DNA of 43,849 nt from Bdellovibrionales bacterium (lineage in GTDB: Bacteria > Bdellovibrionota > Bdellovibrionia > Bdellovibrionales > UBA1609). The notes under the pieces were generated by a model. It had not been told where the DNA came from, ran no database searches, and was given only the letters and a program-made list of their open reading frames with translations. This document shows, one piece after another, positions 3,462-22,456 of the stretch (its first letter is position 1; each line of letters begins with the position of its first letter). Where the stretch lies: contig JABSOQ010000014.1 of NCBI GenBank assembly GCA_013216195.1, positions 1-43,849 on the forward strand, read 5' to 3'. The translations under genes and the position numbers were made by a program.

Positions 3462-3463
3462 GA

Positions 3464-4870
3464 ATGTCTGTTAATCTCAAAAAACTAAGTGTCATTTTTG
3501 TCTCGGCGATGGCTTTTTTGCTTGTGAGCTGTGCTACGACTTCTCTCAATAAAAATGTCGAGATAAAGAAGTTTGAAGAAACGGCATTGAGTAATGGCCT
3601 ACCTCTTCTGATGATGAAAGATGACAGTCTTCCCTATTTTTCGGTCATATTGCTGATAAAGAGTGGAAGTGCCTCTGACCCTGACGGCCAAAAGGGTGTC
3701 TCTCGCATGGTTGCGAAAACGCTAGAGCGAGGAACCTCTAAGAGGTCTGCTGAGCAGATTGCTGAGAGCTTCGACCAAATTGGTGCGAGCTTTAGTGCAA
3801 GTGTGTCGAACGATTTCACGACTGTGACAGCATCAGGTCTGGCTTTTCACAAAGAGCAGATCTTAGACAACTTTGCTGAGGTCGTGACTCAGCCTGCCTT
3901 CTCGATGAAAGAGATTCGAAAAATGAAATCTCTGACACTCGCAAAATTGCAGCAGGCGGTTGATGAGCCGTCGTCGTTTATTGGGCTGGCTATGAGCGAT
4001 TATCTGTACGGTGATCACCCATACGGTTCACCTACAACAGGTAGCGTTAAAGACATTAAGAAAATGAAGAAAAGGCATATTATCCGGCAGTACCTAGGTC
4101 ATTTTCGGCCGAACAATGCGCACTTGGCTGTGGTCGGAAATTTTGATCCAAACGTCGTAAAGAAAAGTCTTGAGGCAAAATTTAAGGATTGGGCGAAGAG
4201 GGATGTGCCTCAAGTTGATGTTCCTGGGTTTCCTGAGGTCAAGGGCTTGAGTATTCGACTTATTGACAAGACTGACCTTAAGCAATCGCAGATTCGTTTT
4301 GGTGGAGTTGGGATCTCAAGAAAACACCCAGATTTCTTAAAGCTTAGGGTTGCTAACACCATTCTTGGTGGGGCTTTTAAGAGCCGACTTGTCGACAAGA
4401 TAAGAGCTGAGAAGGGTTTGACATACTCTATTTACTCTCGCTTTGATGCGCGCAAGGAAGAGGGGCCTTTCATGGTGTCGACTTTTACAAGGCACGAGAA
4501 GGTGAAGGAGACCATCAATGAGACCCTTGATGTGATTAAAAACTTTCGTGATAAAGGTGTGACTAAGCAAGAAGTGGAAGATGCGAAAAACTTGTTAAAA
4601 GGCAGTTTTCCGCGCTCTATTGAAACGCCAGAGGCCTTGGTGCAGAACTTACTCTATCTGCGCTTTTATGGAATTTCTGACGATTACCTGAAAGACTACA
4701 TTTCTACTATCGATAAGATTTCGATGTCAGATGTTAATGACGTGATTAAGAAGCACTTTGATACTGAAAACATGAAAGTTCTGGTTTACTCGTCTAAAAA
4801 AGAAGTCATGAGCCAGTTGAAAGATATAGGTGAGGTCAGTGTTCTGCCTTATAAGAAAGCTTTGAACTAA
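3464..4870 (+). CDS. M16 family peptidase-like lipoprotein lacking the HxxEH zinc motif
   Basis: Lipobox-like LLVSCATT; M16 fold sequence (NGLPLLMMKDDSLPYFSVILLIKSGSASDPDGQKGVSRMVAKTLERGT) without HxxEH. Two bases downstream of the active M16 gene. Confidence 0.88.
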   Translation: MSVNLKKLSVIFVSAMAFLLVSCATTSLNKNVEIKKFEETALSNGLPLLMMKDDSLPYFSVILLIKSGSASDPDGQKGVSRMVAKTLERGTSKRSAEQIAESFDQIGASFSASVSNDFTTVTASGLAFHKEQILDNFAEVVTQPAFSMKEIRKMKSLTLAKLQQAVDEPSSFIGLAMSDYLYGDHPYGSPTTGSVKDIKKMKKRHIIRQYLGHFRPNNAHLAVVGNFDPNVVKKSLEAKFKDWAKRDVPQVDVPGFPEVKGLSIRLIDKTDLKQSQIRFGGVGISRKHPDFLKLRVANTILGGAFKSRLVDKIRAEKGLTYSIYSRFDARKEEGPFMVSTFTRHEKVKETINETLDVIKNFRDKGVTKQEVEDAKNLLKGSFPRSIETPEALVQNLLYLRFYGISDDYLKDYISTIDKISMSDVNDVIKKHFDTENMKVLVYSSKKEVMSQLKDIGEVSVLPYKKALN

Positions 4871-5150: not shown

Positions 5151-5975
5151 CTATGCAGAAGCTTCCGTTGAGTTGATCGTCTGTTGTGTGGCTCTTTTGG
5201 CTTTGGCGAGAATCTTGCGGAACTCTTTGGCCTTGTCATTTGAGCAGGCGACAATCACTCTGTCATACTGGTTTTGCACAGAATTAATGAAAATTTCGAA
5301 CTGTGAAGAGTCTTGCTTTAGGCTGTTGCCAAGCCCTAGGCTTGGTACTACATCTAAGTTGTGAAGAATGTTATCACATACAGTCTCTCTGAAACTAATC
5401 TTCCCATTTAGATATTGGCTGAGAGAATTCTTAAGCAGGCTAGCCCTACTAGAATCGAGCAAAAGCAGAACCCTTTCTTCTTTGTTTGTGTGGTGTTGAG
5501 CATAGAAAGAGTCGACAATGTTCAGCAGACTGCCTCTCATCTGAGCTGGTTCTAGCTCTAACATCAAGATCTTGGCTTTAATCTGTTGAGGAGGCTGTTG
5601 CTCTCGAGACTCAAGGTGTTTGTCGACTAAAACTGGAAAGTTCGACAGTTGAAAATTAAGAGCCATCGGCGAGCCGAAATTGTCATCTTCAAACTGCATG
5701 TCTTTGTTGGTAAAGGCCTTAGTGACTTCTTCAAAAGTGGAGGGCGCTTGTGGCTCATCAGTAAGCTCATTTTCAAATTTGTTTTCACTCTCGGAGAAGC
5801 TGTTGGCCACAGCCAGAGCGTGTTTGGTTTCGGTTTGTTCAAGAAGCCAATACAGAGATATGCAAAAGATCATAAACTGGCTAAAGGCAAAAAGGTAGCT
5901 GCCTGTTGCCAAGCTTGTAAGCATGGTCGAAGAGGAGACCGCGCTAATTAATACTGTGACTTTGCTAGTTTTCAA
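5151..5975 (-). CDS. Membrane protein with a C-terminal region resembling a degenerate BY-kinase/CpsD-type P-loop domain
   Basis: N-terminal hydrophobic segments. C-terminal RVLLLLDSSRASLLKNSLSQYLNGKISFRETV...NLDVVPSLGLGNSLKQDSSQFEIFINSVQNQYDRVIVACS follows the BY-kinase layout but has no Walker A. Confidence 0.75.
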   Translation of the reverse strand: MKTSKVTVLISAVSSSTMLTSLATGSYLFAFSQFMIFCISLYWLLEQTETKHALAVANSFSESENKFENELTDEPQAPSTFEEVTKAFTNKDMQFEDDNFGSPMALNFQLSNFPVLVDKHLESREQQPPQQIKAKILMLELEPAQMRGSLLNIVDSFYAQHHTNKEERVLLLLDSSRASLLKNSLSQYLNGKISFRETVCDNILHNLDVVPSLGLGNSLKQDSSQFEIFINSVQNQYDRVIVACSNDKAKEFRKILAKAKRATQQTINSTEASA

Positions 5976-7033
5976 TCCAAAACCTCAATGTTTTTTTCGG
6001 ACAAAATTCCTTCTTGTAATGTCTTCTCGGAGTATGGCTGTATGAAAAAGAGTCCAGTTTCAGGCGGAGTGTCCCGTATTATCAGGGTCCAGCGGACTTT
6101 GGTGTTGGTACCCTCATCGAATTTAAGAGCTAAGAACGGAGTTTGACCGGCACTAAACTTTCTTAGCAAAGTTGTACCATTGGTCGCCTCGACTTTGACC
6201 TCGCAGGCCTTTAGGCACTTTTTCTTAAGTATGATAGGAATGCGACTTGGCTTTGAGTAAAGAAAAACAGTTTGATCACCTGGGTAGGGCAAAGCGTAGT
6301 TATAAGCAGCCTCCTTCACATCTAGCGTCTCATCGATTGAGAGTATCTGACCTTGAATATTGTAGTTGCCGTCTCCTCGGTAGTCAGGAGCCTGCTCTGA
6401 GCCACTGCCGGTGATCTTGTTAGTGGCAGTGTCTTGCTTTCTTTTGTACTGTGCTGGTTTCTCTCTAGGCTTTGAGCTAGACCCACTGGTTTGCTTTCTT
6501 TTGCGTGCAGTGAGCCCGGTTTTGTATTCAGTGAGAGTGAGCCCAGTGTCAGTGTACTGACTGACGCTAAAGGTAGTCGCCGATTCAGCTAAGATTTTCA
6601 TAGACTCTTGGTTGTTATGAATTTCAAGTTTAGCCTCTTTAGTTAAGCTTCCTGATACCTCACCATTAGCGATAAAGAGGTCAATTGTGCCCTCAATGAC
6701 ACGAATGTCTACAAGGGAGTTCGCGGCAATTCGAATAATAGAATCGTTCTCAAATTTCACAGTCAGTGAAGACCTGGGTGAAGTGAAAACTCGGTCTCCG
6801 TTCGCAAGGAAATATCCGGCTCTTAGAGGTCGAAAAGTAAAGCCCATTGCAAGTCTTCGGACAGGTCGGCCAGCGACCTTTTTGGCGATAGCGATAGAAT
6901 TCTCTTCGTTAACAAGATCACTCTCAAACAACACATCGTAGAACACAAGGGTGAGGGTAACGGCAGCAAACAATGCGAGATTAATACCGAGTAAAATGAG
7001 CTCTTTTCGAGTGAATGACGACAGGTAGTCCAT
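5972..7033 (-). CDS. FecR-domain-like single-pass membrane protein
   Basis: N-terminal TM (LILLGINLALFAAVTLTLVFYDVLF), then LANGDRVFTSPRSSLTVKFENDSIIRIAANSLVDIRVIEGTIDLFIANGEV, FecR-like. 4-bp overlap with the next gene. Confidence 0.78.
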   Translation of the reverse strand: MDYLSSFTRKELILLGINLALFAAVTLTLVFYDVLFESDLVNEENSIAIAKKVAGRPVRRLAMGFTFRPLRAGYFLANGDRVFTSPRSSLTVKFENDSIIRIAANSLVDIRVIEGTIDLFIANGEVSGSLTKEAKLEIHNNQESMKILAESATTFSVSQYTDTGLTLTEYKTGLTARKRKQTSGSSSKPREKPAQYKRKQDTATNKITGSGSEQAPDYRGDGNYNIQGQILSIDETLDVKEAAYNYALPYPGDQTVFLYSKPSRIPIILKKKCLKACEVKVEATNGTTLLRKFSAGQTPFLALKFDEGTNTKVRWTLIIRDTPPETGLFFIQPYSEKTLQEGILSEKNIEVLD

Positions 7034-7175: not shown

Positions 7176-7889
7176 ATGAGAAAACGAAGTCAGATCAGAG
7201 AAGTTCTGATACTCATAATCGCAATGATTAGTATGGGATGCTCAACAGGCAATCTCTATTTGGTGTCAGACCAAGAGGGTGCCGAGGTGTTTTTGCGCGC
7301 AGTTGGTCAATCTAATTCTGAAAGCATCGGCAAGACCCCTTTGCAAAGACCACTAGACCAAGTGATTTCTAATCGCGACACAGGCAAGGGTTTGGTGCTC
7401 GAAATCAAGAAGGAAGGATTCGTAGACAAGCAAGTTTATCTTCCGGGGCTGAGAATCTCAGAAGACATCGAGATCAGAACACAACTGCAACCGCTACCAG
7501 TAGCCCAAGGTGTCGACAGTGAAGGCCGAGACATGAGAAGCCCGGCTGCTATACAAGCTGAGTTAATCAAAGAGCAAGAGACCAAAGTGGCTCGTATTTA
7601 TGAAACCAATACGATCATTGATCAAGTTTTTGAAATCAAGCGATTAATACATGTTGGCAGAAGAGAAGAGGCGACGAAGAGAATTAGTAGCCTGAAAGAA
7701 GAGTACCCGAACCTGTCTGTACTTTACGAGTTGCAGGGCGGAATAGCGTTCTTGGGTAAAAACTATCAACAGGCACTCGATGAATACAGCGTTGCCCTCA
7801 AGATTCATCCTGAGAATCTGCAGATACTGAATATGAAACGCTACCTCGAGAAGCTTCTAGGGGTTGAGCAAAGGGGGCAGGTGCAATGA
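7176..7889 (+). CDS. PEGA-domain/TPR lipoprotein
   Basis: Lipobox MISMGCSTG; PEGA-like NLYLVSDQEGAEVFLR...IGKTPLQRPL...LVLEIKKEGFVDKQVYLPG; C-terminal TPR-like NYQQALDEYSVALKIHPENLQ. Confidence 0.82.
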   Translation: MRKRSQIREVLILIIAMISMGCSTGNLYLVSDQEGAEVFLRAVGQSNSESIGKTPLQRPLDQVISNRDTGKGLVLEIKKEGFVDKQVYLPGLRISEDIEIRTQLQPLPVAQGVDSEGRDMRSPAAIQAELIKEQETKVARIYETNTIIDQVFEIKRLIHVGRREEATKRISSLKEEYPNLSVLYELQGGIAFLGKNYQQALDEYSVALKIHPENLQILNMKRYLEKLLGVEQRGQVQ

Positions 7890-9823
7890 TGCGTTTACTC
7901 CCCTTACTCTTAATGTTTTTCTCTTCAGCACTTGCTAACCCGCAGGTGAGTTACTTGTTTGAAAAACAGCGAGTCGACTTGGAAAAGCATCTTGAATCTA
8001 AAATACAAATGAACTTAGAGCCTATTCTGCCGAAGTCAGCCTATATTATTAATGTAGGTGTACGGTTAAAACCACTACCAAAAGTAAGTAGAGTACGGCG
8101 ACGGGCTCAGCGCCCCGTGAGGCCGATTGAAAACCCTAGTCCAGCAGAATTGAATGATCTGATTCCACTTCCTAAGGTCGGCTATTGGCCAATAAAAGAG
8201 ACTGTAGAAGAAGAGCCGCAAGAGGTTGTAGGTCTCGATGTCAGTTTTGATGAGATGGTCGATTCAATACTAATTGATATTCGAGTTGATGAAGAGAAAG
8301 TGACTCCTGAACAGAAGCAATCAGTTGAAGAAGTGACAAATCTCATTGCTCGGAAGTCGACGCCTGTGGACCCATTTGTAGTAGTCAAGCCGATGAAGGT
8401 TGCCTTTGAAAACCAGGTTGCGAAAGACTTCGTGCAGTCGGCTAGTGAAAAGCTGCAAGCAGAGTTTGATAAAAAAGCCGAGAACTTGATACGACAGGCT
8501 GAAGAGAACAAGAGCTCTAAGAGCCTGTTACTAGATCTTGCCGGCCCGATCGCACTTGTTGTTGTGATGATCTTGATGGCTATGGTGGCGAGTTTCTTAG
8601 GTAGAAACTTTTTGTCGCTGCAAGAAAAGCGTTTAGACTTAGATGAGACTATTTCAAGACGTCAAATGGAAGTCTCTATGCAAGATCGTCTTGATAGATC
8701 ACAGACTGGTGAAGTTTCTAGAGATGGCGAATCAAACGCCCTTGTTGAGGCCACTGAGATGGGCGCCTTTATAGGCGGTCTTGAGCAGGTCAAAAACTTA
8801 GCTGAGACCGAGCCTGAAGCTGTTGCCTTCCAGATTAAGAAGTGGTTGAGATCGAAAGACGAGCGAGCACCTGAAGCTCTGTACGCTGTTTCGCGTAGTT
8901 TGCCGATTCGCTACCTGTCGAACGTGCGACAGGCACTTTCAGACTCAGAGAGAAAAGTCTGGAACTCGATTATTCACAAGCACCCGATGAGGCACCCTAT
9001 TCATGTCATCGACAACTATGTTGCCGATTCTCTATCAGGTGAGGCCGTGTTTCCGATTTCGGTTGCAGATGTCGATGTGAAAGAGATGATTCAGTCGATC
9101 AATTCTGAAGAGGCGGCACTATGTATTGAACGCAATGGTCGTTTGGCGAAGCTCTTTATGCATTACCTGCCGTCGCTTACTATTGCAAAGATTGTGAAGC
9201 GACTAGATGCCAACTCTGTAAAAGGTTTGGCAATGAATTCAAGCGAGCCAAGTCATGACGAGATTCAATCACTTGGAAGATCTCTAAAAGAAACCTTAAC
9301 TGCTATAAGACAAGAGCGTTCGGGTTCAGAAACAGTTTTTCTCGAAATGGCTCCAGATCTATTGTTGGAAGTTGGCTATCTCAAAGAAGCCTCTGTCTTT
9401 GAAAGTATTGGAATGCTAGCCGGTAAAGACAAGCTGATTGAAATCGCACGAGAGTTCTTGCCAAGCCAGTTAGTTCAATATGTTCCTAAAGACATATTAA
9501 CTGCTGTCTTGAACAAAAGAAGCTTGGTGCAAAGGGCCGAGCTTCTTTACTCAGCTCAAGATGAGAGCCGAGTCCTGCTGCAAAAAGTTATAGGTGGTGG
9601 TCGAGCTCAAGAAGTCTTGCAGGCTGAGCTTGATGAGATTCAGGCAGACGCTAACAAGGCCTCTTTGATATCGAGATCAAGTCAAAAATACTGGCAAAGC
9701 TTCTTAGATGACATCAGGGCTGAGTTGCGAAGAAGTCCAGAGGTTGTTGACGAGATTCTGCCTCAGATTGAAAGCTGGGCAGGGCAAGTGGCTAGCTCTG
9801 GGGGACCAAGTGCTGCAGCTTAA
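7886..9823 (+). CDS. Signal-peptide, single-TM protein with a large helical cytoplasmic region resembling FliF/FliG
   Basis: Signal peptide MMRLLPLLLMFFSSALA; central TM LLLDLAGPIALVVVMILMAMVASFLG; then EPEAVAFQIKKWL (FliF-tail-like) and alpha-helical FliG-like segments. ATG overlaps the previous gene by 4 bp. The FliF/FliG relation is inferred. Confidence 0.7.
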   Translation: MMRLLPLLLMFFSSALANPQVSYLFEKQRVDLEKHLESKIQMNLEPILPKSAYIINVGVRLKPLPKVSRVRRRAQRPVRPIENPSPAELNDLIPLPKVGYWPIKETVEEEPQEVVGLDVSFDEMVDSILIDIRVDEEKVTPEQKQSVEEVTNLIARKSTPVDPFVVVKPMKVAFENQVAKDFVQSASEKLQAEFDKKAENLIRQAEENKSSKSLLLDLAGPIALVVVMILMAMVASFLGRNFLSLQEKRLDLDETISRRQMEVSMQDRLDRSQTGEVSRDGESNALVEATEMGAFIGGLEQVKNLAETEPEAVAFQIKKWLRSKDERAPEALYAVSRSLPIRYLSNVRQALSDSERKVWNSIIHKHPMRHPIHVIDNYVADSLSGEAVFPISVADVDVKEMIQSINSEEAALCIERNGRLAKLFMHYLPSLTIAKIVKRLDANSVKGLAMNSSEPSHDEIQSLGRSLKETLTAIRQERSGSETVFLEMAPDLLLEVGYLKEASVFESIGMLAGKDKLIEIAREFLPSQLVQYVPKDILTAVLNKRSLVQRAELLYSAQDESRVLLQKVIGGGRAQEVLQAELDEIQADANKASLISRSSQKYWQSFLDDIRAELRRSPEVVDEILPQIESWAGQVASSGGPSAAA

Positions 9824-10415
9824 GGCTTTTTTCTTATTCATTTTGATGAGTGCGACTGGCTTTGCCGCTGCAGACACTCCTGCACTTCAGGCCCATTTCC
9901 GCAGTGGTCTCATTCAAGGTAACTTCTCTGGTTCAACCAGTGAAGGTGAAGTCAGTGGTGACTTTTCAGCAGTGACTTCAATGGATCTTGAATTTGAGTA
10001 TTTCGCAGATAATCAGTCAAGCTATGTCACTCGAGCTACAATTCTGGGCGACCAGTCGACGGGTGAGTTGTCGTACTTCTACATGGGGTTAGGCTACAAG
10101 CGCTATATTTTCTCTCAAGGTCGCTACCTCGAGTCACTTGGTGATGAGCTCACATTTTCAATAGTGCCTAAATGGCGATATTACGTTCAAGGTGATGTTG
10201 GGCTGGCCAATGTCAAAATTGAACAGGTCACTGAGTCATTATCTGCCGAAGCCAACCTAGTCGAGCTTGGTGGAAGTGGTGGTGTGATTTATCAAATGAC
10301 AAAGTCGACTGGTATTGAAGCCATAGTAGGAGTGAGTTCAGGAGTACCAATCTCAAGTATTGCTGTTAGCAGCTTAGTGATTAAAGTCCTGATTGGAGCA
10401 ACGGCATACTTCTAA
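9810..10415 (+). CDS. Probable outer-membrane beta-barrel protein
   Basis: ORF track 9708..10415. The signal peptide VLQLKAFFLFILMSATGFAAA places the likely GTG start at 9810; alternating beta-strand-like sequence ending in ...VLIGATAYF. Confidence 0.72.
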   Translation: MLQLKAFFLFILMSATGFAAADTPALQAHFRSGLIQGNFSGSTSEGEVSGDFSAVTSMDLEFEYFADNQSSYVTRATILGDQSTGELSYFYMGLGYKRYIFSQGRYLESLGDELTFSIVPKWRYYVQGDVGLANVKIEQVTESLSAEANLVELGGSGGVIYQMTKSTGIEAIVGVSSGVPISSIAVSSLVIKVLIGATAYF

Positions 10416-10428
10416 GTAGGGAGAAGTT

Positions 10429-11220
10429 GTGAACATTTATTCGGTACTGGCATTTTTGCTTGCGGGCTTAGTCTTTTTTGGCTCGGTGTTCACTGCCAGT
10501 GATAATGTCTCTGCATTTTTAGACTGGCACGCCGCTCTTATAGTTTTTGGCGGTACCTTGTCGGTCGCAGCTATTTCATTTCAGCTCGACAGAATTACAA
10601 CTATGCTTCGGGTTTTTTATTACCGAGTGATGCGTAACCGCAAAAGCGAAAATATCGGTTTAATTAAAGACATTTTGGCCTTTGCTGAGGCCTACAGAAA
10701 GAATCCGCAAGACGCAGCTTCTCTTGTCGATTCATTCAAGGATCCCTTTCTGAAAGAGTGTATTACAGCCCTTCTTGAAGACTATATGGATCACGAGACA
10801 TTCAGAAAAGTAATGCAGCAAAGAATCGAGACAATTTTCGCTCGTTACAGTGATGACGCTAAGAAGTTTAAAGCTCTTGGTAAGTATCCACCAGCCATGG
10901 GTCTGATGGGTGCGGTCTTGGGAATGATTGCATTGCTTCAGACGCTCGGGCAGCCAGGTGCGGAAGACAATGTCGGGCCAGCCATGGCCATTGCGATGGT
11001 TGCAACTCTTTACGGAATTGCTTTTGCCAACTTAGTGGTGCTGCCTATTGCAGAGAATCTTACTGAAGGTGCAAAAGAGGTGCTAGTCAAGAACACGATC
11101 ATTCTTGAGGGTGTGCTATTGGCCGGGCAGCGCAAGAACAAAATCATTATGACGGAAGAGCTCAATTCATTTCTATTGCCATCAGAGAGAATTGATTGGA
11201 AAGAAGCTGTAGGTAGCTAG
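10429..11220 (+). CDS. motA: MotA-type stator protein
   Basis: Four TM segments; KYPPAMGLMGAVLGMIALLQTLG and VGPAMAIAMVATLYGIAFANLVVLPIAENL match MotA TM3/TM4; GTG start. Confidence 0.9.
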   Translation: MNIYSVLAFLLAGLVFFGSVFTASDNVSAFLDWHAALIVFGGTLSVAAISFQLDRITTMLRVFYYRVMRNRKSENIGLIKDILAFAEAYRKNPQDAASLVDSFKDPFLKECITALLEDYMDHETFRKVMQQRIETIFARYSDDAKKFKALGKYPPAMGLMGAVLGMIALLQTLGQPGAEDNVGPAMAIAMVATLYGIAFANLVVLPIAENLTEGAKEVLVKNTIILEGVLLAGQRKNKIIMTEELNSFLLPSERIDWKEAVGS

Positions 11221-11222
11221 TC

Positions 11223-11921
11223 ATGTCACTAAAACATCTGCATCACCACGAGGAAGAAGAAGACGGCGGAGAAGAAATTTGGCTCTTGTCGTATTCAGAT
11301 TTGATGACACTTTTATTTGGCTTTTTCGTCTTGATGTATGCTTTTGCCTCAGTGAACAACGCTATTGAGCGCGAACAGGTAAAAAACTCGATGGCTAAAG
11401 CCTTTGGTGGATCATTTGTGCCCCAGTACGAAGCTCTAGAAAAAGATCTCAAAGATTTTCGTGATTCAAATGCAGAATTGAGATTTGTAGAGGTTCAGCC
11501 CGATGACGAGGGTATTGAGATAGTGTTCCGTAGTGGTATGTTTTTTGAGTTGGGGAGTGCTGAGATTTTACCAGTGATAAAAACAAAGCTAAAAACCATT
11601 ATTGAGATTGTGTCGGTACACATACGCGAGGCAGAAGTGCGAGTTGAGGGTTACACAGACGATTTGCCGATCAAAACACCTCAGTATCCGTCAAATTGGG
11701 AGCTTTCTTCGGCGAGAGCCTCTTCGGTGGTTAGGCAGTTCGTGAAGTTTGGCTTTGATCCAAAGAGGCTTGTGGCGGTTGGTTTTGCTGATACTCGACC
11801 TGTAGTTCCACTTTATGACGAGTATGGTAAACTGATTCCTGAGAATAGAGAAAAAAATCGGCGGGTGGTTATCAAGATCGTTTCAAAGCAAAAAGTCAGC
11901 AACAAGGAATCTGCTCAATGA
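11223..11921 (+). CDS. motB: MotB-type stator protein with OmpA-like peptidoglycan-binding domain
   Basis: WLLSYSDLMTLLFGFFVLMYAFASVN (TM with the conserved Asp) plus OmpA/MotB signature VRVEGYTDDLPI...YPSNWELSSARASSVVRQFV. Confidence 0.92.
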   Translation: MSLKHLHHHEEEEDGGEEIWLLSYSDLMTLLFGFFVLMYAFASVNNAIEREQVKNSMAKAFGGSFVPQYEALEKDLKDFRDSNAELRFVEVQPDDEGIEIVFRSGMFFELGSAEILPVIKTKLKTIIEIVSVHIREAEVRVEGYTDDLPIKTPQYPSNWELSSARASSVVRQFVKFGFDPKRLVAVGFADTRPVVPLYDEYGKLIPENREKNRRVVIKIVSKQKVSNKESAQ

Positions 11922-12934
11922 GCCAAAAGTTGACCTGGGGGCAAATGGTTTTGTTTGCTGTTGGGGTTACAATTGTGCTCTTTGGAGCTGTTGGACTTTG
12001 GAATCGGTTTCCAGGGCAATCGATAGGGGCCTCTGAACAACATCAGAGAGATTTGGCAGTACTGAATGACTCTAGCCTGGGCGTTTTTGAAAAAAGAACG
12101 AGTGTTCTTAGGCTAGCTAAAAAGCAACACCGAAGAGCTTTCGAGTTGGCGCGCGCCTGGCTAGAGAGCGAAAACAAAACCATTCGAGCTCTTGGTTTTC
12201 AGGTGATTGCGCTTAGCTCCCTGCCTGAAGATCACAGCCAAGTCATTGAGTATTATAGAGACAGGGTGCCTGAGGGTGAGAGCCAAACTTACCTTAGGTT
12301 TTTGGCTCAAGGCTATCTGGGAGATCCGAGGCTCCGGGAGTTGGCCGAGGCATTAGAAGCTACAGATCCACTAAGAGCTTTTCCTGTTCATGAAGCTTTG
12401 TACAAGGCTGGTGACGATAAGAAGGCTTCAAAAGCTTATTTCTTGAAACAGGCAGAATCTCAGAACAATTTGTATTGGCAAAAGGCGCGTTTGTTTCTAT
12501 TGCAAAATAATGTTGAGCCTAGGCAAAACTTTGAGACTTTACTTAGCAGTTTTAAATTTAAGGTTTTGGAAAGATCTGTAGCGTCTGATGTGGTACTGAC
12601 CTTGGCAAAGAGAGCCTCCGAATTTGAGTCAGAAAAGAGAGTTTACTCACATTTGAGGCCAGACAAGGTTTGGTACATTCAATCGGCGTTGATTGATTCA
12701 TTGATCGTGGGCTGCCCTAAAGCAATAGACAAAATTGTTCAGAATTATTTGTCTTACAAAGAGTTAGAGACTAGAGGTGTGAAGAAGCTGGTTAGTTCGC
12801 TTCTTCGTATGGACTCGAAAAAGAATATGCCTTTGGTTGAAAAGTTGATGCAGACAGCAAAAACCTCTCAAGAACAGTTTCAACTACAAAAATTAGTTGA
12901 TCAGTACAAGACTCTTCCAGCAGTCTGCAATTAG
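11918..12934 (+). CDS. Membrane-anchored alpha-helical repeat (HEAT/TPR-like) protein, unassigned
   Basis: ATG overlaps the motB stop by 4 bp; N-terminal TM LFAVGVTIVLFGAVGLW; helical repeats follow. Stop TAG lies in the first repeat unit at 12927-13003. Confidence 0.82.
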   Translation: MSQKLTWGQMVLFAVGVTIVLFGAVGLWNRFPGQSIGASEQHQRDLAVLNDSSLGVFEKRTSVLRLAKKQHRRAFELARAWLESENKTIRALGFQVIALSSLPEDHSQVIEYYRDRVPEGESQTYLRFLAQGYLGDPRLRELAEALEATDPLRAFPVHEALYKAGDDKKASKAYFLKQAESQNNLYWQKARLFLLQNNVEPRQNFETLLSSFKFKVLERSVASDVVLTLAKRASEFESEKRVYSHLRPDKVWYIQSALIDSLIVGCPKAIDKIVQNYLSYKELETRGVKKLVSSLLRMDSKKNMPLVEKLMQTAKTSQEQFQLQKLVDQYKTLPAVCN

Positions 12935-13005: not shown

Positions 13006-16000
13006 CTACTCGCGTTTTAGGTGAAGACCAGAGCTTCTACCAACGGCACTGTCAAAGTTGTCTTGGCTGTCCACATGAAATACCTCTAGTGCCCCTATAC
13101 CTAGCAGACTTGCATCTATAGATTCGCTAGGAGAGCTTGTCTCTAGGCTTGTGACCTTATGATAGGCAGTTGAGCTACTGATGATTGCAGAGCTCTCGTT
13201 TGAGGCGCTAACAGCCTTAACTGCCTGGAAAACCTCAACAGTGCCGCTAAATAGGCCTGCAGAATAGCCAGGGTTACCTGCTGCAGCTGCGTTTTGTTGA
13301 GCACCACTATCTGAGTGATTCAGATTGCCATTAAAATGTAACAGGTGGACAGTGTCGCCGTCACTCGTAAAAGCTGATGGATCTACAACGAAACCTCCAC
13401 CAGAGTATCTTGCAGATTTCGACACTCTGAATTCATCGATGTTCCCGTTAAAATGTGAACCAGAGGCGTTACCAGCAAGTGACGATGCAGAGCTACTGAA
13501 GCTTAGGGTAGGTGAGGCAAAGTTCATGCTAGAGTCTTGATCGTCGCGACTACCATCGACGTAGAGTGAAATCGAAGATGAAGAAACAACGGCCGCCACA
13601 TGGTACCACTGATAGGTGTTCCATGAGCTACTGCTACTCTGCACACTGTAGAGCGTTCCATTGTGCCTAATTTCGAAGGTGAGAAAGCCAGATCCATCGA
13701 AGCGCAATCGAGTGGCACCATTTTCTGAGGTCACATCACCTTTTTCAAACAAGATACTTGAGTTAGGTGAAGAAGAGGGTCTGAACCTGAGTTCAATAGT
13801 AGCTTCCGATTCGCCTGAAAGACCAGCACCGTCAGCCAAAGTCAGGTATTCACTCTGAGCTGACTCAAGCGCCAAATAGTCTGAGAAAGGTAGGTATCCT
13901 GTTCCGATTATTCCAAAAGAGTTAGCCGTAGATGACCCAAAAGTGTCGTGCTCATTCAGAACAGTGAGGCCTCTATCGGTGCCCACCAAAATTTGATTGC
14001 GACCGGTCTGTGCAGCAGACGAGCCCTCAGCAATATGCATGCTGTTGAGTTCTAAGCTAACCAAAGCGGCGGCCGACGATTTGCTGTAGGTTCGGCTCTC
14101 ACTGAAATTTGCAGATAGAGGCAAGCTTAAGTCGGCCCGACGAACCCCAGAGTTTTCCTCAAGATAGTAAAGCCGGCTGTTAGAGGCTAAATACACATCG
14201 ACAACCTCATTGGCCCCAGAGTCAGCGTATTTGGTAGTGGTGCCAGAGACTCGCAGTAGATCGACCCCAGCTCCATGGCCAATTGCCAAATAGTCTACAC
14301 TCGAGATGGTATCACCATGAAGGGCTTTAACACCGTTGTTCGACAGGGCGGGGTAGGTGGTGTTAACGCTAAACACTCCGCTTGAGTTTCTCTGAGAGAG
14401 GTTGCGATTCGATAGGAATCGATTCGTAGATGTCAGTTTGTAGATTTGGTCTGTTACAAAGTCTAAAATCATGAGGCCATTCGACATACCAACAAAAACT
14501 TTACCGTTGTTTGCAAAGATCGACGTGATAGAGCCGAGGTTCGCATCGATAGCGTAATCGCTAGATCGTTGAAAGCGCATAAACAGCGTGTAATTTGTGA
14601 GATCTACGATATCGAGACCAGATGCTGTGCCCACAAGCATAACTCGCTCGGGGAATCTGTCTTTGTCACCTCGGTTTGCGCTCGACGACTCAGAGTACCA
14701 ACTCGGCCCTGATGTCGTTCTCCAGGTTGTTGAAGTGTTGGTGCTGGTATCCCAGTAAAACAGCGCCCCAATGTTGTTATTGCCTAAGCGAGAGCGTCCG
14801 TAAGCATCAGTGCTACCAGTGTTCCAATTGGTGCTCCCTGTACCAACACTGATATTCGCACTAGCTCCAGAGGCTCCCCCAGAGATCGACAAGACGCCCG
14901 AGCCAGCTTTAGCTCCAACAAGTGTGGTTGATGCAGTAGCTGTATCAGGAAAAGGTGCGTCGGCAACTGAATCATAGCCAATCCAGTTCACCGAGTCTGG
15001 CCCGAGGTAGTTACCCCAGCGGTCGTACTGGCTTGCGTAGTATGTGGCAGTCGCGTCTATACTGTAGCTATCAGCTGTGACTTCAGTCTGATTTCCACCA
15101 GCAGCGTCTTCGATTTGTGTACAGAAAGCAGAGTCAGCACTGACGGTAAAAACGCCACTGTTACCGGTGTAACCTGATTCATCTGTGGCCGTGACAAATG
15201 TGTTGGTAGCTGCAGACTTCAATTTCATGTTACCTGTGGTAGATCGCCCAAGCGAGAAGAACAGACTTAGAGGAGGCAATTCAACCAATGGGTTGATGGC
15301 TGAAGCACAAAGGTCGGCACCAGCGGCACCATTAGTTGCGATTGTAACAGTGTGAGAGCCTATATATGACTCAGCGACTTCGTTGTTGGCTCGCCTTGCA
15401 ATCACAGAGATGGTGAATGCTTCACCAGCGACGACGCTTGCGTCATTAACGACCACAAGAAAGTTGTCAATGCCACGAGCGGTATCAAACTCGTAAGGTG
15501 AGTTGTCGGCAGGGGTGGCGTTACCTGCATTGTCGTAGGCTGTTAGGCGCACTTTGTAAGGCGTATTGTCTAGTAGGCTACAGCCAGTAAAGCCATCAAA
15601 ATTCGTAGTACCAGCGGTCACGGTTACCTCAGCACAAGCTACAGCATTGTTGTCGAACAGAATCGCAACCCCGTATTCATCTTCTCCAGTAGTATCGGTC
15701 CAGGTGATTTCGGGATCGTTCAAGACATCTGTTAGCCATTCATCAACAGTGGTATCTGAGCCACCATCAAGACCTGATACATCAAAGCCAGCTGCAGGCG
15801 CTACCGTGTCGACCTCGAAAGAAAAACCATTGTTGCCGGCGGTCGCGCTGTTGCCGGCAGAGTCAATTGCCGTAATCTCAACTGTGTAGGTGTCTCCGTG
15901 AGTCAAGTTGCAGCCAGAGAAGGTATGTTGATTGCCAGTCACAGTGGCTGTGCCACAGACGTTTGTGAGACTGGCATTTCTAATCAACACTTCGTAAGTC

Positions 16001-19000
16001 ACAGGTGTCGCATCAGTGGCTGATGACCATTCAATTGTTGGTATATCGGTGTTACCGAGCCACTCATTGGCGATGAGGTCAGAGCCGCCTTTGGCTCCCA
16101 GTATCGGGCTGCCACCAAAGTTCGGGTTCGCGTTGTCATACCAAATGTCGTACTTGTCAGAGTTGTTTGAAACGTTTTGAGCGATATCTTTTGAGAAAAC
16201 ATGAATGTCTTTATTGCCTGGGCCACTGAGGGTAATACTCACCGGAAACGAGCCAGGTTTAGTTTGCCAGCATGAGTTGTTGTAACTTGGAGGGCTTGGA
16301 GCCACAGAATCAGGAAGCTCAAGCCAGCAATACTCGGTAGTGTCGACAGAAAGGTTCACGCTCAAATCGACGACTGCTACGTTTGTGAAACCACTTGCAG
16401 GGTCGAGAGGGTTTTCGACTAGGATACTTGATGGGTCTGCAGGTTTGATAGAATCTAGTGTTATCGTGCCAAGCTCTGCATTTTGGTTCACATTGTTTGC
16501 CGCATCTGCTGTCCAAACATAAATATTTTTTAAGCCTTGAGTCGACGTGGTTGTAAAGCTGGTCGGGCGTGTCGTGTGCCAGTTGTTGTCTGAGCCCTGA
16601 CCACCCACACAGTTGGCTCTATCGTTGGTACCGCTTGAGGGTCTACCTGCTGTTTCAGTGACACACCAGTAAGAGGCGGTGGTGTCGTTGGTGATGGCAA
16701 GTGCCACAGTGTTTTGCCTTATGTAGACCGCGTTAGATGTATTTGGATCTGAAAGGGCTAGTGTTGGGTCTAACAGCGGGTCTAAAACATTGTAGGCTTT
16801 AGATGGCACTGAGGTAAAGCCACTAGCCGTGGCATTCATAGTTTGGCTTGTGCCCGAAGATGTAAAGTAAAGATCAAAAGTTCTTGCTCCACCACTGAGA
16901 TTCACAGGGTTTGTTGAGGTCACATTTGAGTTTGGTGCATTCAAAGTCACCAGATCAGTCGCTGTGGGCAGCTGGTTGAAGAAGTTGTCAGTGGCGTGAA
17001 CATCAACTTGCAGTGTGTAGTTGCTACCTTGAGTTTGTGTGAATGGGGTGCCACTCGCTGCATCCGAAGCGCTCTCATGACCTGGGTCGAAAGACTGACC
17101 TGGCATCACAACTAATAGCTTTTGGCCCGGCCCTTGGCTAATGGCATAGTTGACCGAAGGTGTTCCGGCATACCCGGCTCCTGCCACCGAAACATTGTAG
17201 CCAGAGCCCACAAGAAAGGTTCTGAGGTTGTAAGTGGCTGTGCCGTCGCTCAGTGTATTTGAACTTGTAGGAGCTCGGAATGACAGACTCGACTTTGTCT
17301 GGCTAGGTGTCACCGATATGCTTGTCGAATCATCGTTGATGATATTGTACTCAGAGTCTGTGGCATATACGGTGATAGGTAAGGTCACCCCTGCGGCTAC
17401 AGTCTGCACGCCTAGGTCGCTCACGGCACCACCAAGGCTGAGGTGCCCTTCTTCAAGTGTTTGATAGTCATCAAACAACACGAGTAAATGCGTTTTGGCA
17501 CCTGTGCTCACATTGTAAGTCGATGGAGTATTTGAGCTCAGTGCAGCTGGTGCAACGATTGTGATTGTTTGCACGTTACCAGCTAGAACAGGGCTCAGAG
17601 TGATGTCATAGATACCTTCATCAAAATTTCCTGCGCCGGGGTCTGTGTCTCTCAGATCATCAACAGTGGTGACAGTTACTGCACCCGAATAGCTCGTGTC
17701 AGTGTTAAAGAAGGTGTCAACAGCCCTGATTTTGAGCGGAAGGGTGTCGTCAGTGCTAATAAAGCTTGGGCTGTTTACTACGGCCGAGGCATAGTCTCCA
17801 GAGGTCTGACCAGGGTCGTAGGTTTGCCCATCAAACACCGCAATGTATTGGTTTGCAGCTGCCGCTTGTACAGGTTGCGACTCTGAAATATTCGCAGTCA
17901 GATTTACACCTGAAGCATTGTCGGCTGTGAAATTGTGGTTCGGTATCGCCAAATAATTGGTAACGCTGAATGTGGTTTGACCGCCAGAGGTTATGGCCTG
18001 GTTCGCGATAGCTGGCGCTGCAGGGTCAGTGTTCAGTGTTAGAGATATGTCAGGGTGTGTGTAGCCAGAGATTTGGTTGTAATAATCGTCTGTGGCGATC
18101 ACCGTCACAGAATAGGGGCTTCCCGCAACCTGGGTGATAGCTCCTCCACCGATCGCCGTCGTTAAATCAGGTGCACCTTCATTTAATGCCTGACCAGGTA
18201 GGATCGGTACAAGTTGTGTGGCTGGGCCAGGTGTTACTGTAAAGCTGTAACTTGGCTCATTAATGTAGCCAGAGTCTGCGCTAATGGTATGTACACCCTG
18301 CTGTCTTGGAGTCACCAAGAACGAGGCAACGCCGTTTTGGTACTGGCCAGACGATGTGCTGGTGATCTCTAAGTAAGGGTCAGAAGAAGTCAGCACAGCC
18401 GGTGCTGTGTAGGTCGTGACAGTATTAAATGAGTCATCAACCGCTCTTAAAGTCACAGTGAATGGTGTGCCTACAGCTACGCTTGCCGTGCCTGAGAACG
18501 GCACGCCTGTAACAGCTGCGGCATAGCTTGCTGCACCCTCTACAAATGCTTGGTCTGGCAAAACTGGAACCTTTCGGTTCACTGAGCCTAACTGGGTCTG
18601 TACAGTAGCCGATGCAAAGAATGACGGGTCAGACTCTAAGTAAGCCGTAATCACAAAAGTGTCTTCGACTGTATAGGTGAGATCGCCGAATTCAACTTCA
18701 CCTCTATCCATGGTGCGAGCACCTGTGTAGTTACCAAGCGAGTTGGTATTGCCAGAAAGGCTAAGCGCCACGGTTTCAGAGTTCTCAGTTGTAATTCGGT
18801 TGCCATAGACATCAAGTATTTCAACTTTAAACGGAAATAATGGGTTGATCGTCGAGTTGACGGCCTGAGGTGCCGAGCCCGGAACAAATCGAAATGCCGT
18901 GATCGTAGGTAGTGGATCAATCGTCAACGAGTTAATAATATCAGGCCGACCCTGAAGAGGTGTGCCTGGTTGCACGAGGCCAAATGTCATATCACCAGCA

Positions 19001-22000
19001 TCAGTACCCGTGACTTCTAGACGTGCACGGCCGTTGACGAGGTCACCAACAATTTGCGTCTGATTTGGCGATGAGAAATTGCCTATATTGCGGTTGTCTA
19101 GCACTTGTGCGCCAACCAAGTCTTCGTCACCAAGGCTACTTGTGATATTAAAAGTCACAGTGTAAGAGGCCACAGGGTCTACAGTGATATCGTTGGCGTA
19201 GAAATCTTCTAAATAGACATTCACATAGGCTGTTTCACCAGAGAGCATGTTGCTATCTGATGGGTCTATGCGAATGTGATCAAAAGGCAGTTCTTCGACA
19301 ACGATACCGCTTGATCTACCGTCAATACCGTCTGGTGGGTTGAAAGCGTTCATACCAGCGGTAACTTGAAATGTGCCTCGTGTTGAATAGAGCTCGAAAG
19401 TGTCAGAGGTCCCAAGGGCATGAACTCCGTTTGTAAAGGTGAAGTTGCCGCTAGCTGGGCTGGTGTAGTAGTTATTCTCGCGGTTAGAGGCATTAATTTG
19501 CCTTACGCCGAGGCCAACGAAGTAGCTGCCATTGACCTGAGTACAAATATTTCGTTTGTCGTCTCTCACAGACAATGTTGGCCTAAAGGTTTGCCCGGCG
19601 GTAACTGTGCCGGGCACGCTAACTCCAATATAGTCAGGAGCACCTGGGCTGATAGTGATAAGCCCAGTGCTGGCGGTGACTGTGAGGTCTCCACTTGTAG
19701 AGGTGTAAGTTGCTCGCATCACACCATCAGAGGGAACATCTCCTTCAACAAAAATATTAGTAGCGGGAGTCACAATGGCCTGTAAGTTCGAGCCAATCGG
19801 AAAGTCATTACCAGAGTCATCCCAGTCGACACTGGTAGAGAGAATGTCGAGAAAGTTCAACTCACTGTCAAAAGCCTGCGCAAAGAACTGGGTACGATCA
19901 TCTGTAGATAAAGACACTGTGGCATTAGTAATATCAGTACCACCGTTAATCATAGTGTCGCCATCGTAAATGCGAAGTGAGTCAACTTCACCAGCCACCG
20001 AGCGAATCACCATTGTGTCTTGATAACTGGGTTCATCAACATCTTGTACAGAGATAGTGATGGCATCACCGGCCCTTGGAAGCCTCAAATTAAACCAACT
20101 AAATCGATTACCTTGGCCTGCTGCAAATTCAAAAAGTGCAGAAAAAGTAGAAGTACTTGGAAAGACTGGGCTTGTGCCGGCCGGAGAAGACCCTGGAGTG
20201 TTGCTGACAGTCACATTTAGATTCCGGTTACCAATGGTCACAGCTTCGGGGATCTGGTTTCCAAATTGATCTACTGGTAAAACTCGTAAGTTGAATGTCC
20301 CGACAGCAGGGGCTTCGTTTGGCCCAAGTGCTTGAGGCCAATTTGTGGGTGGGTCTACTCTTAGTCTGTAATCATAAAGATCAGCAGGAGCAATTTGCCC
20401 GAGTGCATTGTTGTCAACGGTAATGGTCCCGTAGGTGCCAGAGTAAGTGAATGCAAAGTTGAACCATCTCTCACCTATGCCACCGTTAGTTACAGTTAGA
20501 GGAGTGAGGGTCACAGCAGTCGTTAAGGCGCCCTCTGGAGAGAACTGACCGAAAAACCCTGAGGCTAAACGACCAGACATCGTGGCCAGGTAAGTTGCGG
20601 GTACATTTTCAAGAAAGTTGCCGGCCTTGTCCTCAACAGAAGCATAAATTGTGATTGCTCCTGAGCCCGCTTGTCGCTCTAGGCCGACGCAATTGGGTCT
20701 TAGACCTGATACAAAGCTTCCGCTCAGAACCTCGTCGAAAGTTCCGTCGAGATGGAGGGGGTAGTGGCGGAAGTTGCTCTGGCCATAACCGTCTTCGTAA
20801 ACGCCCTTACACACTGGCTCCGCATCTGCCCCGGGACCGAGTCGAAGGTTTCCATAAATGCTAGAGTTGAGAGTGACTGTGAAGGTAGCTGACCCAGCCG
20901 GTGAAAAGCTTGCAAATGGTGTGTCGTCAGTGAAAACTCGAATGTCCATTACAGGAGACACAGCGGTGGCGTCCCAGAAGATTAAATCTTCATTGTAAGA
21001 AGAGGCTAAACCACCGGTAAAGTTCTGTGAGATGGTTACGGTTTCCCCGTAGGGGTTGACAAAGTTGCGGTTGAAAGTCGGTATTGAACCCCCAGCAGGT
21101 GCAGTGCCAGTAACGTAATCACGAAAGCTAAACTCAACGTCATGAATACCCTGAATACCTGGGCCTGAGAATTGCGGGCCAACTCGGTTACCATCGGCAT
21201 CAACAACCTCAAGGTCAAAGTCAATTTCGTCACCTGCAGGCACACTCAAACCCCCTGGCAGAATGACATTTACTCCAACAGGGTCACCGGGGTCAATCGT
21301 CAACAGACCGGTAGAAGCGATGCCATGGGGTGGGCTGTTCACGGTTAAGTAACCACCGCCGGGGTGAGGGAGGGTATCTCGAAAAGAAAGCGTGGTAAAC
21401 TGACCTGTATTGGTCGACAAGTTGTTATCAATCTCAGGTTCAGCTGAGCTCCATGTGCCTGTGGTCATGTCGCTAATATAGTTACCCACGGCATCTGTTA
21501 TGGCTGCGTAATAAGTCTCATCAGTCGAGTCTGTAGTGTAAAGCTGTGTGCCCACGATTGCAGTGGCTCCAGCGTCTGGTCCACCCAGCCCATCGGTGAT
21601 AGCAAGATCAGATGCCGCAGATTCAAGAACTGTCACCTCATGTGCAAACACATCGATCAGCCCATCGTTACCATCTCCCATAAAAATAATGGTTTCAGTT
21701 CTGGTATCGGTTAGGGTGACCGTACCATCGGGGATCTCACAGACACCTTCTACAAAGGTACAAGATTGCACAGAGGGTAGCAGGGTTGGGCTAACGCCGC
21801 CCCAGCTATCAGAAGTTACGAAAGTCCACTCGAGGTCTACGGTCTCTTCGTAGCTGGTAACAACTGAGTTGGTGTCTGTGAATATCACTGAGACGCGAAA
21901 GCCAAAGCCAACACCCGCGACCTCTGTGTCACCGTTGGTTGATTCGAGGTCAAAGCGATAATTGTTGTTCTCTTCGTCTGAATTGACCAAGAAAACTTGG

Positions 22001-22416
22001 CAAGTTGCTGAGCCCTCAATACAGGCCTGAATTCGTGAGACCTCACCAAATACAACTGGCAATCTTATGTTGGTTTGCGCAAACCCACTGCTGTCAGTTA
22101 CGACGTTAGGAGACGTTATGAGTACTCCCGTTTCAGAGATTTCACGAAAGGTAACATCAATACCATTTGCCGGCTGACCGTCTGGGCTGGTGACTTGAAT
22201 GATGAGTGGGTCGTCGAGAAGCTTGTCTGCTTGGCCCAGCTGACTGTTACCAGAAACCATTGCGATGTTTAAACCGAAGTCATTAGAGGCTAGGCCCTCG
22301 AGGCCATCTTTGGTACAAGCTGTTAGCGTGGTAAGAGCAACACACAACACGGCAAGACATTTTCCTTTAAGAAAATGCAAAGATGATATCGTGCAATTGG
22401 TGTGTTTACTTTTCAT
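13006..22416 (-). CDS. Giant (~3,136 aa) lipoprotein: many Ig-like/filamin-like modules, a propeller-like region and a C-terminal LamG-like domain
   Basis: Single uninterrupted ORF. Lipobox LTACTKDG after MKSKHTNCTISSLHFLKGKCLAVLCVALTTLTAC. ATG at 22416 is preceded by GGACGGA (the track starts at GTG 22425). LamG-like ATIELRFRPSSSPNSSILFEKGD...WYHVAAVVSSSSISLYVDG. Confidence 0.9.
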   Translation of the reverse strand: MKSKHTNCTISSLHFLKGKCLAVLCVALTTLTACTKDGLEGLASNDFGLNIAMVSGNSQLGQADKLLDDPLIIQVTSPDGQPANGIDVTFREISETGVLITSPNVVTDSSGFAQTNIRLPVVFGEVSRIQACIEGSATCQVFLVNSDEENNNYRFDLESTNGDTEVAGVGFGFRVSVIFTDTNSVVTSYEETVDLEWTFVTSDSWGGVSPTLLPSVQSCTFVEGVCEIPDGTVTLTDTRTETIIFMGDGNDGLIDVFAHEVTVLESAASDLAITDGLGGPDAGATAIVGTQLYTTDSTDETYYAAITDAVGNYISDMTTGTWSSAEPEIDNNLSTNTGQFTTLSFRDTLPHPGGGYLTVNSPPHGIASTGLLTIDPGDPVGVNVILPGGLSVPAGDEIDFDLEVVDADGNRVGPQFSGPGIQGIHDVEFSFRDYVTGTAPAGGSIPTFNRNFVNPYGETVTISQNFTGGLASSYNEDLIFWDATAVSPVMDIRVFTDDTPFASFSPAGSATFTVTLNSSIYGNLRLGPGADAEPVCKGVYEDGYGQSNFRHYPLHLDGTFDEVLSGSFVSGLRPNCVGLERQAGSGAITIYASVEDKAGNFLENVPATYLATMSGRLASGFFGQFSPEGALTTAVTLTPLTVTNGGIGERWFNFAFTYSGTYGTITVDNNALGQIAPADLYDYRLRVDPPTNWPQALGPNEAPAVGTFNLRVLPVDQFGNQIPEAVTIGNRNLNVTVSNTPGSSPAGTSPVFPSTSTFSALFEFAAGQGNRFSWFNLRLPRAGDAITISVQDVDEPSYQDTMVIRSVAGEVDSLRIYDGDTMINGGTDITNATVSLSTDDRTQFFAQAFDSELNFLDILSTSVDWDDSGNDFPIGSNLQAIVTPATNIFVEGDVPSDGVMRATYTSTSGDLTVTASTGLITISPGAPDYIGVSVPGTVTAGQTFRPTLSVRDDKRNICTQVNGSYFVGLGVRQINASNRENNYYTSPASGNFTFTNGVHALGTSDTFELYSTRGTFQVTAGMNAFNPPDGIDGRSSGIVVEELPFDHIRIDPSDSNMLSGETAYVNVYLEDFYANDITVDPVASYTVTFNITSSLGDEDLVGAQVLDNRNIGNFSSPNQTQIVGDLVNGRARLEVTGTDAGDMTFGLVQPGTPLQGRPDIINSLTIDPLPTITAFRFVPGSAPQAVNSTINPLFPFKVEILDVYGNRITTENSETVALSLSGNTNSLGNYTGARTMDRGEVEFGDLTYTVEDTFVITAYLESDPSFFASATVQTQLGSVNRKVPVLPDQAFVEGAASYAAAVTGVPFSGTASVAVGTPFTVTLRAVDDSFNTVTTYTAPAVLTSSDPYLEITSTSSGQYQNGVASFLVTPRQQGVHTISADSGYINEPSYSFTVTPGPATQLVPILPGQALNEGAPDLTTAIGGGAITQVAGSPYSVTVIATDDYYNQISGYTHPDISLTLNTDPAAPAIANQAITSGGQTTFSVTNYLAIPNHNFTADNASGVNLTANISESQPVQAAAANQYIAVFDGQTYDPGQTSGDYASAVVNSPSFISTDDTLPLKIRAVDTFFNTDTSYSGAVTVTTVDDLRDTDPGAGNFDEGIYDITLSPVLAGNVQTITIVAPAALSSNTPSTYNVSTGAKTHLLVLFDDYQTLEEGHLSLGGAVSDLGVQTVAAGVTLPITVYATDSEYNIINDDSTSISVTPSQTKSSLSFRAPTSSNTLSDGTATYNLRTFLVGSGYNVSVAGAGYAGTPSVNYAISQGPGQKLLVVMPGQSFDPGHESASDAASGTPFTQTQGSNYTLQVDVHATDNFFNQLPTATDLVTLNAPNSNVTSTNPVNLSGGARTFDLYFTSSGTSQTMNATASGFTSVPSKAYNVLDPLLDPTLALSDPNTSNAVYIRQNTVALAITNDTTASYWCVTETAGRPSSGTNDRANCVGGQGSDNNWHTTRPTSFTTTSTQGLKNIYVWTADAANNVNQNAELGTITLDSIKPADPSSILVENPLDPASGFTNVAVVDLSVNLSVDTTEYCWLELPDSVAPSPPSYNNSCWQTKPGSFPVSITLSGPGNKDIHVFSKDIAQNVSNNSDKYDIWYDNANPNFGGSPILGAKGGSDLIANEWLGNTDIPTIEWSSATDATPVTYEVLIRNASLTNVCGTATVTGNQHTFSGCNLTHGDTYTVEITAIDSAGNSATAGNNGFSFEVDTVAPAAGFDVSGLDGGSDTTVDEWLTDVLNDPEITWTDTTGEDEYGVAILFDNNAVACAEVTVTAGTTNFDGFTGCSLLDNTPYKVRLTAYDNAGNATPADNSPYEFDTARGIDNFLVVVNDASVVAGEAFTISVIARRANNEVAESYIGSHTVTIATNGAAGADLCASAINPLVELPPLSLFFSLGRSTTGNMKLKSAATNTFVTATDESGYTGNSGVFTVSADSAFCTQIEDAAGGNQTEVTADSYSIDATATYYASQYDRWGNYLGPDSVNWIGYDSVADAPFPDTATASTTLVGAKAGSGVLSISGGASGASANISVGTGSTNWNTGSTDAYGRSRLGNNNIGALFYWDTSTNTSTTWRTTSGPSWYSESSSANRGDKDRFPERVMLVGTASGLDIVDLTNYTLFMRFQRSSDYAIDANLGSITSIFANNGKVFVGMSNGLMILDFVTDQIYKLTSTNRFLSNRNLSQRNSSGVFSVNTTYPALSNNGVKALHGDTISSVDYLAIGHGAGVDLLRVSGTTTKYADSGANEVVDVYLASNSRLYYLEENSGVRRADLSLPLSANFSESRTYSKSSAAALVSLELNSMHIAEGSSAAQTGRNQILVGTDRGLTVLNEHDTFGSSTANSFGIIGTGYLPFSDYLALESAQSEYLTLADGAGLSGESEATIELRFRPSSSPNSSILFEKGDVTSENGATRLRFDGSGFLTFEIRHNGTLYSVQSSSSSWNTYQWYHVAAVVSSSSISLYVDGSRDDQDSSMNFASPTLSFSSSASSLAGNASGSHFNGNIDEFRVSKSARYSGGGFVVDPSAFTSDGDTVHLLHFNGNLNHSDSGAQQNAAAAGNPGYSAGLFSGTVEVFQAVKAVSASNESSAIISSSTAYHKVTSLETSSPSESIDASLLGIGALEVFHVDSQDNFDSAVGRSSGLHLKRE
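16790..18578 (-). repeat. Five diverged ~120-aa modules within the giant lipoprotein, starting VLPDQAFVEG / ILPGQALNEG / VFDGQTYDPG / LFDDYQTLEEG / VMPGQSFDPG
   Basis: Each module carries a [VIL]xPGQxxxxG-like opening and a central VDDSFN/TDDYYN/VDTFFN/TDSEYN/TDNFFN motif; openings are spaced about 360 bp in the DNA. Confidence 0.75.
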
Positions 22417-22456
22417 TCCGTCCACGTTCCGCTTTATCTATATGTACGTTTCGGAC

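Follow-up and report, generated by a model that had tools for sequence, protein, structure and literature searches.

A natural FliF-FliG fusion encoded beside MotAB in Bdellovibrionota, probably the rotor of a non-flagellar machine

The 43,849-nucleotide contig analyzed here (the window), from a member of the Bdellovibrionales, encodes a protein in which the membrane-proximal portion of FliF (RBM3, TM2, and the tail that binds FliG) is almost certainly joined, by natural fusion, to a torque region like that of FliG. The fusion and a MotAB pair dedicated to it probably constitute the stator-driven rotor of a non-flagellar machine in predatory-type bacteria. Our best overall explanation, to which we assign a probability of roughly 60%, is that a ring of the fusion is turned by its own MotAB and moves a surface assembly without a flagellum. 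Sequence comparison and predicted structure show that the two parts are fused, that the torque charges are retained, that the gene is linked to motAB, and that the system persists where the flagellum is absent.

Results

Domain organization of the fusion protein

A sequence-only reading of the window had proposed a signal start, a periplasmic segment, one transmembrane helix, and a helical cytoplasmic half in a single chain. The ORF, the hydropathy scan, and the secondary structure of an AlphaFold model all bear this out: the reading frame is open and contains every motif that had been quoted from it. By sequence reading, the N terminus (MMRLLPLLLMFFSSALA/NP) is signal-like with an AxA site at the slash. 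Beyond this region, the hydropathy scan detected one transmembrane segment. Of 71 homologues, 64 likewise have a single call past residue 70, and two calls, several of them overlapping, were made in the remaining seven. The tail motif EPEAVAFQIKKWL lies at about residues 309 to 321, and the FliF proteins of the same order terminate in a similar manner (...EKAAGAFSLWLSRRD). In flagella, this C-terminal tail of FliF is the FliG-binding region.

The AlphaFold model of the fusion has a mean pLDDT of 77 and a pTM of 0.33, and the fold was read from its DSSP string and confidence values. Helix 19-44, strands 53-61 and 125-135, helix 141-158, and strand 164-170 are followed by helices only from residue 213 to 638. 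Both the model and the Foldseek matches to the FliF S-ring point to the alpha-beta-beta-alpha-beta fold of RBM3 with the collar insertion between strands 1 and 2.

Table 1 Features of the fusion gene and its neighbors in the window
Feature	Position	Strand	Basis
FecR-like membrane protein, upstream of fusion	5972..7033	-	FecR 7e-4, under Pfam cut-off
PEGA/TPR lipoprotein, 4-base overlap with fusion start	7176..7889	+	Window copy weak TPR; homologues weak PEGA and TPR
FliF-FliG fusion protein, 645 aa	7886..9823	+	ORF; PDB profiles (FliF/FliG sole matches for A4, top for A5); Foldseek FliG/FliF top
Signal-like sequence, residues 1-18, SALA/NP, in place of FliF TM1-RBM1-RBM2	7886..7939	+	Sequence reading; FliF aligned from its residue 230 on
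Periplasmic RBM3/S-ring-like domain, residues 19-172	7940..8401	+	AlphaFold secondary structure; Foldseek FliF S-ring 8z5v, TMt 0.54; hhalign to FliF
Single transmembrane helix, residues 211-245	8516..8620	+	Hydropathy scan (window and 70 homologues); model helix 213-272
FliF-like C-terminal tail, residues 298-322, ...EPEAVAFQIKKWL	8777..8851	+	Aligned to FliF C-tails
FliG-like helical region, residues 327-638	8864..9799	+	3ajc FliG aligned over 409-597; Foldseek
Torque-helix equivalent, residues 570-587, R573 = E. coli R281, E581 = D289	9593..9646	+	Column counts; register from 3ajc alignment
Putative outer-membrane beta-barrel, true start probably within ORF	9708..10415	+	OMP_b-brl matches of neighbors; gene order
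MotA-type stator subunit	10429..11220	+	MotA_ExbB 8e-23; closest NCBIfam, flagellar MotA/PomA; tree
MotB-type stator subunit, MotB_plug and OmpA peptidoglycan-binding domains, D26 invariant	11223..11921	+	Domain searches, alignment
338-aa protein, N-terminal hydrophobic segment, 4-base overlap with motB	11918..12934	+	ORF; no family
Giant 3139-aa lipoprotein, laminin-G-like domain, possible surface adhesin	13006..22425	-	Laminin_G_3 6.6e-20; lipobox LTAC
HAMP-SpoIIE phosphatase	22682..24541	-	Domain match; neighborhood counts

Homology to FliF and FliG

Searched alone, the window protein gave no meaningful match in Pfam, NCBIfam, or the PDB, nor did any FliG model match it. We relied on two profiles, one of the near family (A4, 25 sequences) and one of the divergent family with the window protein included (A5). 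Against all PDB chains, A4 matched five entries at E <= 10, comprising one FliG and four FliF structures. FliG 3ajc aligned with residues 409-597 (E = 7e-5), while the parts matched to FliF 8z5s were residues 30-76 and the C-tail, and the best match to FliF 6scn was the C-tail (residues 245-319). For A5, the FliG match reached E = 6e-22 and the FliF match E = 1.5e-4. Once the window protein was removed, A5 still recovered it at E = 6.4e-13, and shuffled and reversed decoys gave zero matches.

In hhalign, residues 21-325 aligned with residues 230-549 of FliF from the same order (probability 80%, E = 1.4e-5), and a MotB control reached a probability of 0.3%. The corresponding comparison with FliG of the same order was weak (probability 10%); the low diversity of the FliG sequences used (Neff 1.7) is the probable reason. 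TIGR00207 was matched by 7 of 48 family members. The profile comparison that the sequence-only reading had suggested matched both FliF and FliG. The PDB and hhalign alignments place a FliF C-tail of the FliG-binding type in the fusion. TM1, RBM1, and RBM2 of FliF are absent: the alignment starts at FliF residue 230, there is no second transmembrane segment, and the start is signal-like.

Foldseek searches with the window model returned FliG entries at the top and FliF S-ring entries within the top 22; whole-chain TM-scores were low, likely reflecting flexible domain placement. For a second AlphaFold model, of a divergent member from another subfamily, the top match was again FliG, and the FliG C-terminal domain 1qc7 was superposed with a TMt of 0.83 (1.7 A over 85 residues). 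Together with the PDB profiles, these two models support the proposal of FliF and FliG in a single chain. The further idea of a one-protein MS-ring and rotor holds in part: FliF and FliG are joined, but FliF contributes no more than RBM3, TM2, and its tail, and a flagellar role of the rotor is improbable.

Torque helix and stator contact residues

The E. coli FliG numbering used in Table 1 follows PMC12505986. In the alignment of 25 near homologues, the R281 column is basic in 25/25 sequences and the D289 column is acidic in 25/25, so the conservation of torque-helix charges that had been put forward as a check is found at both positions. Of 66 MotA proteins linked to a fusion, 54 carry a basic residue at the R90 position, while E98 is not conserved. 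The contact between MotA E98 and FliG R281 is the classical one between stator and rotor; since E98 is not conserved, the stator-rotor contacts of this system must differ. The EHPQ motif for FliM binding was absent from the fusion opposite the FliG sequences in the alignment, in which its placement is approximate.

Gene neighborhood of the fusion

Neighborhoods were compared with 20 control regions of 20 kb from five genomes. A relative of the lipoprotein occurs in 65 of 71 fusion loci, directly upstream of the fusion in 41. A relative of the barrel candidate is the next gene after the fusion in 41/71 loci and occurs in 0/20 control regions; the window copy has no Pfam match, and the OMP-like proteins of loci L122 and L123 match OMP_b-brl weakly, under the cut-off. 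Relatives of MotA and MotB are present in 65/71 and 64/71 fusion loci, respectively, the MotA count being inflated by the many loci that were found via MotA. The MotA protein scores far better to flagellar stator models than to TolQ, and the top models for MotB are flagellar. Proteins of a size similar to that of the 338-aa product come after motB in several other loci, and proteins of about 330-355 aa, comparable to the FecR-like protein, recur beside the system in the neighborhood listing.

Giant lipoproteins also recur near other fusion loci, although their enrichment is not statistically established. ORFs longer than 1000 aa occur in 26/74 fusion loci versus 5/20 controls, and those longer than 1500 aa in about 16/74 versus 1/20, a difference that is not decisive; the link between the giant lipoprotein and the fusion system is only suggestive. 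Relatives of the HAMP-SpoIIE phosphatase were counted in 24/71 fusion loci and in 3/20 control regions under a looser threshold for the controls. This association is likewise only suggestive, and the phosphatase is a possible regulator of the machine. Other flanking genes of the window (177-1430, 2118-4870, and 26267-28054) encode a YkuD/Cds6_C protein, two M16 peptidases, and a subtilase.

Distribution of the fusion in Bdellovibrionota

Ten of 142 genomes of the order, that of the window among them, gave matches in a protein search, and an alignment of ten proteins was built. As the ten-sequence fusion profile was too variable to seed a scan, the conserved neighbor MotA was used to scan GTDB genomes. 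This returned 64 loci, mostly labeled as Bdellovibrionota groups and with a few labeled Proteobacteria or just bacteria, and an iterated profile search found a fusion relative in most of them. Across 376 genomes of the phylum, a further search revealed fusion-sized proteins in many families of Bdellovibrionota; the 341 genomes that it returned should not be read as a tally of fusions, since the family profiles also match true FliG and FliF. The genome of the window (G000) carries a second fusion copy with a lipoprotein gene (G000:C244:951-2603, L160) and, elsewhere, a second MotAB pair of the system type (G000:C254, L168). At G000:C68:16500-20500 (L167), a further MotAB pair looks non-flagellar, and a divergently oriented ORF there, truncated at the end of the stretch, matches the fusion profile (E = 4e-7).

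G004, which is probably B. bacteriovorus HD100, encodes a 577-aa fusion homologue near 2.92 Mb, together with MotB and MotA (L122, G004:C1:2905000-2922000). By position, its fusion-linked MotA is the middle one of three MotA loci, which we matched to motAB1-3. According to the title of a 2011 paper, the products of three motAB stator genes of B. bacteriovorus reportedly contribute to motility by the single flagellum. The pair motA2-bd3021/motB2-bd3020, named in PMC11323537, fits the fusion-linked pair of G004, which is therefore probably motAB2, so far counted among the flagellar stators. Two FliG copies of HD100 are placed among the flagellar-related genes in a 2012 genome paper, and the second of these is probably the FliF-FliG fusion. 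Within the open-licence PMC literature, to the extent that its texts were available, we found no description of a FliF-FliG fusion of this type.

Independence from the flagellum

The genome of the window has an intact, separate fliF-fliG pair (G000:C60). Two genomes, G121 (97% complete) and G123 (99%), keep the fusion and the dedicated MotA, with MotB also adjacent in G123. FliG_M over the cut-off, FlhA, FliQ, and the rod proteins were all not found in these two genomes, so the fusion persists there without an export gate, a rod, or a canonical FliG. Since G121 and G123 keep it without a flagellum, the fusion looks like the rotor of a separate surface machine. G030 was also considered as a genome without a flagellum and was rejected, as it lacks FlhA but has FliQ and rod proteins. 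In the MotA tree, the fusion-linked proteins branch apart from the sampled MotA proteins of flagellar type, including the genome's own flagellar MotA and the MotA1- and MotA3-type proteins that G004 encodes (support 98/93). No flagellar operon was noticed beside the fusion in the neighborhoods listed, in which few neighbors are annotated, and no fliM or fliN was noticed near it.

Discussion

That the fusion is an alternative or additional part of the flagellar rotor, used with a second set of stators, appears quite improbable to us. Most of the fusion-bearing genomes of the order are also flagellated, and the title on three motAB pairs ties all of them to flagellar motility, as does, for FliG, the grouping of both HD100 copies with flagellar-related genes in the 2012 paper. 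However, G121 and G123 retain the fusion and MotA without FlhA, FliQ, the rod, and canonical FliG. The lack of RBM1/RBM2 and TM1, the separate clades of the fusion-linked MotAs, and the sparsely annotated neighborhoods, where no flagellar operon was noticed, also speak against a flagellar part.

An energized transenvelope device, formed by MotAB and the fusion, that rotates no ring but pulls on or gates a partner in the outer membrane or in secretion, in the manner of TolQRA, ExbBD-TonB, or SiiAB-type systems, is unlikely. It would account for the linked lipoprotein, the putative outer-membrane barrel, and the occasional giant lipoprotein, and it would fit the lack of conservation at MotA E98. 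Against it stand the nearness of MotA to flagellar stator models rather than TolQ, the flagellar top models of MotB, the plug and OmpA domain of MotB, and the torque-helix charges that the FliG-like region has kept throughout its near family. The FliG and MgtE_N folds resemble each other, and MgtE_N is the commonest weak Pfam match in the near family (12/25), which would fit a cytoplasmic half that was simply a non-rotary scaffold of MgtE_N/armadillo-like helices. We regard such a scaffold as very improbable: the FliG match of A5 is far better than that to MgtE in the same search (E = 0.0065), and the half of the chain N-terminal to the helical region resembles FliF and ends in its tail.

We therefore favor a ring of the fusion turned by its own MotAB, and we infer the following mechanism. 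The fusion would assemble into an inner-membrane ring via its RBM3-like domain. The adjacently encoded MotAB stator, ion-driven and bound to peptidoglycan through MotB, would push on the conserved charged helix at the cytoplasmic face and so turn the ring, whose periplasmic domain could drive or reposition a cell-surface assembly via the PEGA/TPR lipoprotein and the putative outer-membrane barrel. Such a machine would operate without a flagellar export gate, rod, or filament, and its likeliest job would be gliding or the movement of surface adhesins in Bdellovibrionota. Transmission of force to the surface is a little short of an even chance, and it is gene order that points to coupling through the lipoprotein and barrel. 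Gliding specifically is the leading candidate for the job, albeit a tentative one. The dedication of MotAB to this machine may not be strict, given the title on three motAB pairs, one of which appears to be fusion-linked.

In a 2026 review (PMC13104615), the gliding machinery of Bdellovibrio is described as unidentified and finding its motor as a major challenge. The locus offers a specific, testable gene set for that motor. With due reserve, we put forward that the gliding motor sought in Bdellovibrio and its phylum is a complete non-flagellar rotary motor that moves surface components by means of a fusion ring and its own MotAB, and that has no export gate, rod, or C-ring switch. As a flagellar rotor stripped of its export and switch functions, the fusion would inform what a minimal rotor needs, and the system gives a chance to ask how stator-rotor contacts shift upon the loss of E98. 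In addition, one motAB pair of B. bacteriovorus that has been counted as flagellar may belong to a different machine.

Comparison with known systems

The proposed machine resembles AglRQS/Glt of Myxococcus, for which an ion-driven stator-like motor for surface motility has been proposed (PMC13104615). Unlike the fusion system, AglRQS/Glt has no FliF/FliG rotor described in the accessible sources, and the Agl subunits are grouped with generic ion transporters of the ExbBD/TolQR type (PMC12505986). With the MotAB/PomAB stators the system shares a MotA and a MotB with a plug, a conserved Asp, and an OmpA domain, whereas the fusion-linked MotA clades stand apart from flagellar MotA of the same order and, although mostly basic at the R90 position, do not conserve E98. 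Like FliF, the fusion has an RBM3/S-ring-like periplasmic fold, one transmembrane helix, and a C-terminal xPExxAxxIxxWL tail; unlike FliF, it begins with a signal-like sequence instead of TM1, RBM1, and RBM2, continues after the tail into a FliG region of the same chain, and is separate from the genome's own fliF. With FliG it shares the middle and C-terminal homology and the torque-helix charges, but it is membrane-anchored, EHPQ was not seen at the aligned position, and fliM/fliN were not noticed nearby. A further parallel is engineered: FliF-FliG fusion proteins of Vibrio have been purified as an MS-ring (PMC11481574). Both place MS-ring and rotor parts in one chain, and the ring seen there is predicted here. 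In contrast to those engineered fusions of flagellar proteins, the fusion in the window is natural, truncated, found phylum-wide, and encoded outside a flagellar operon.
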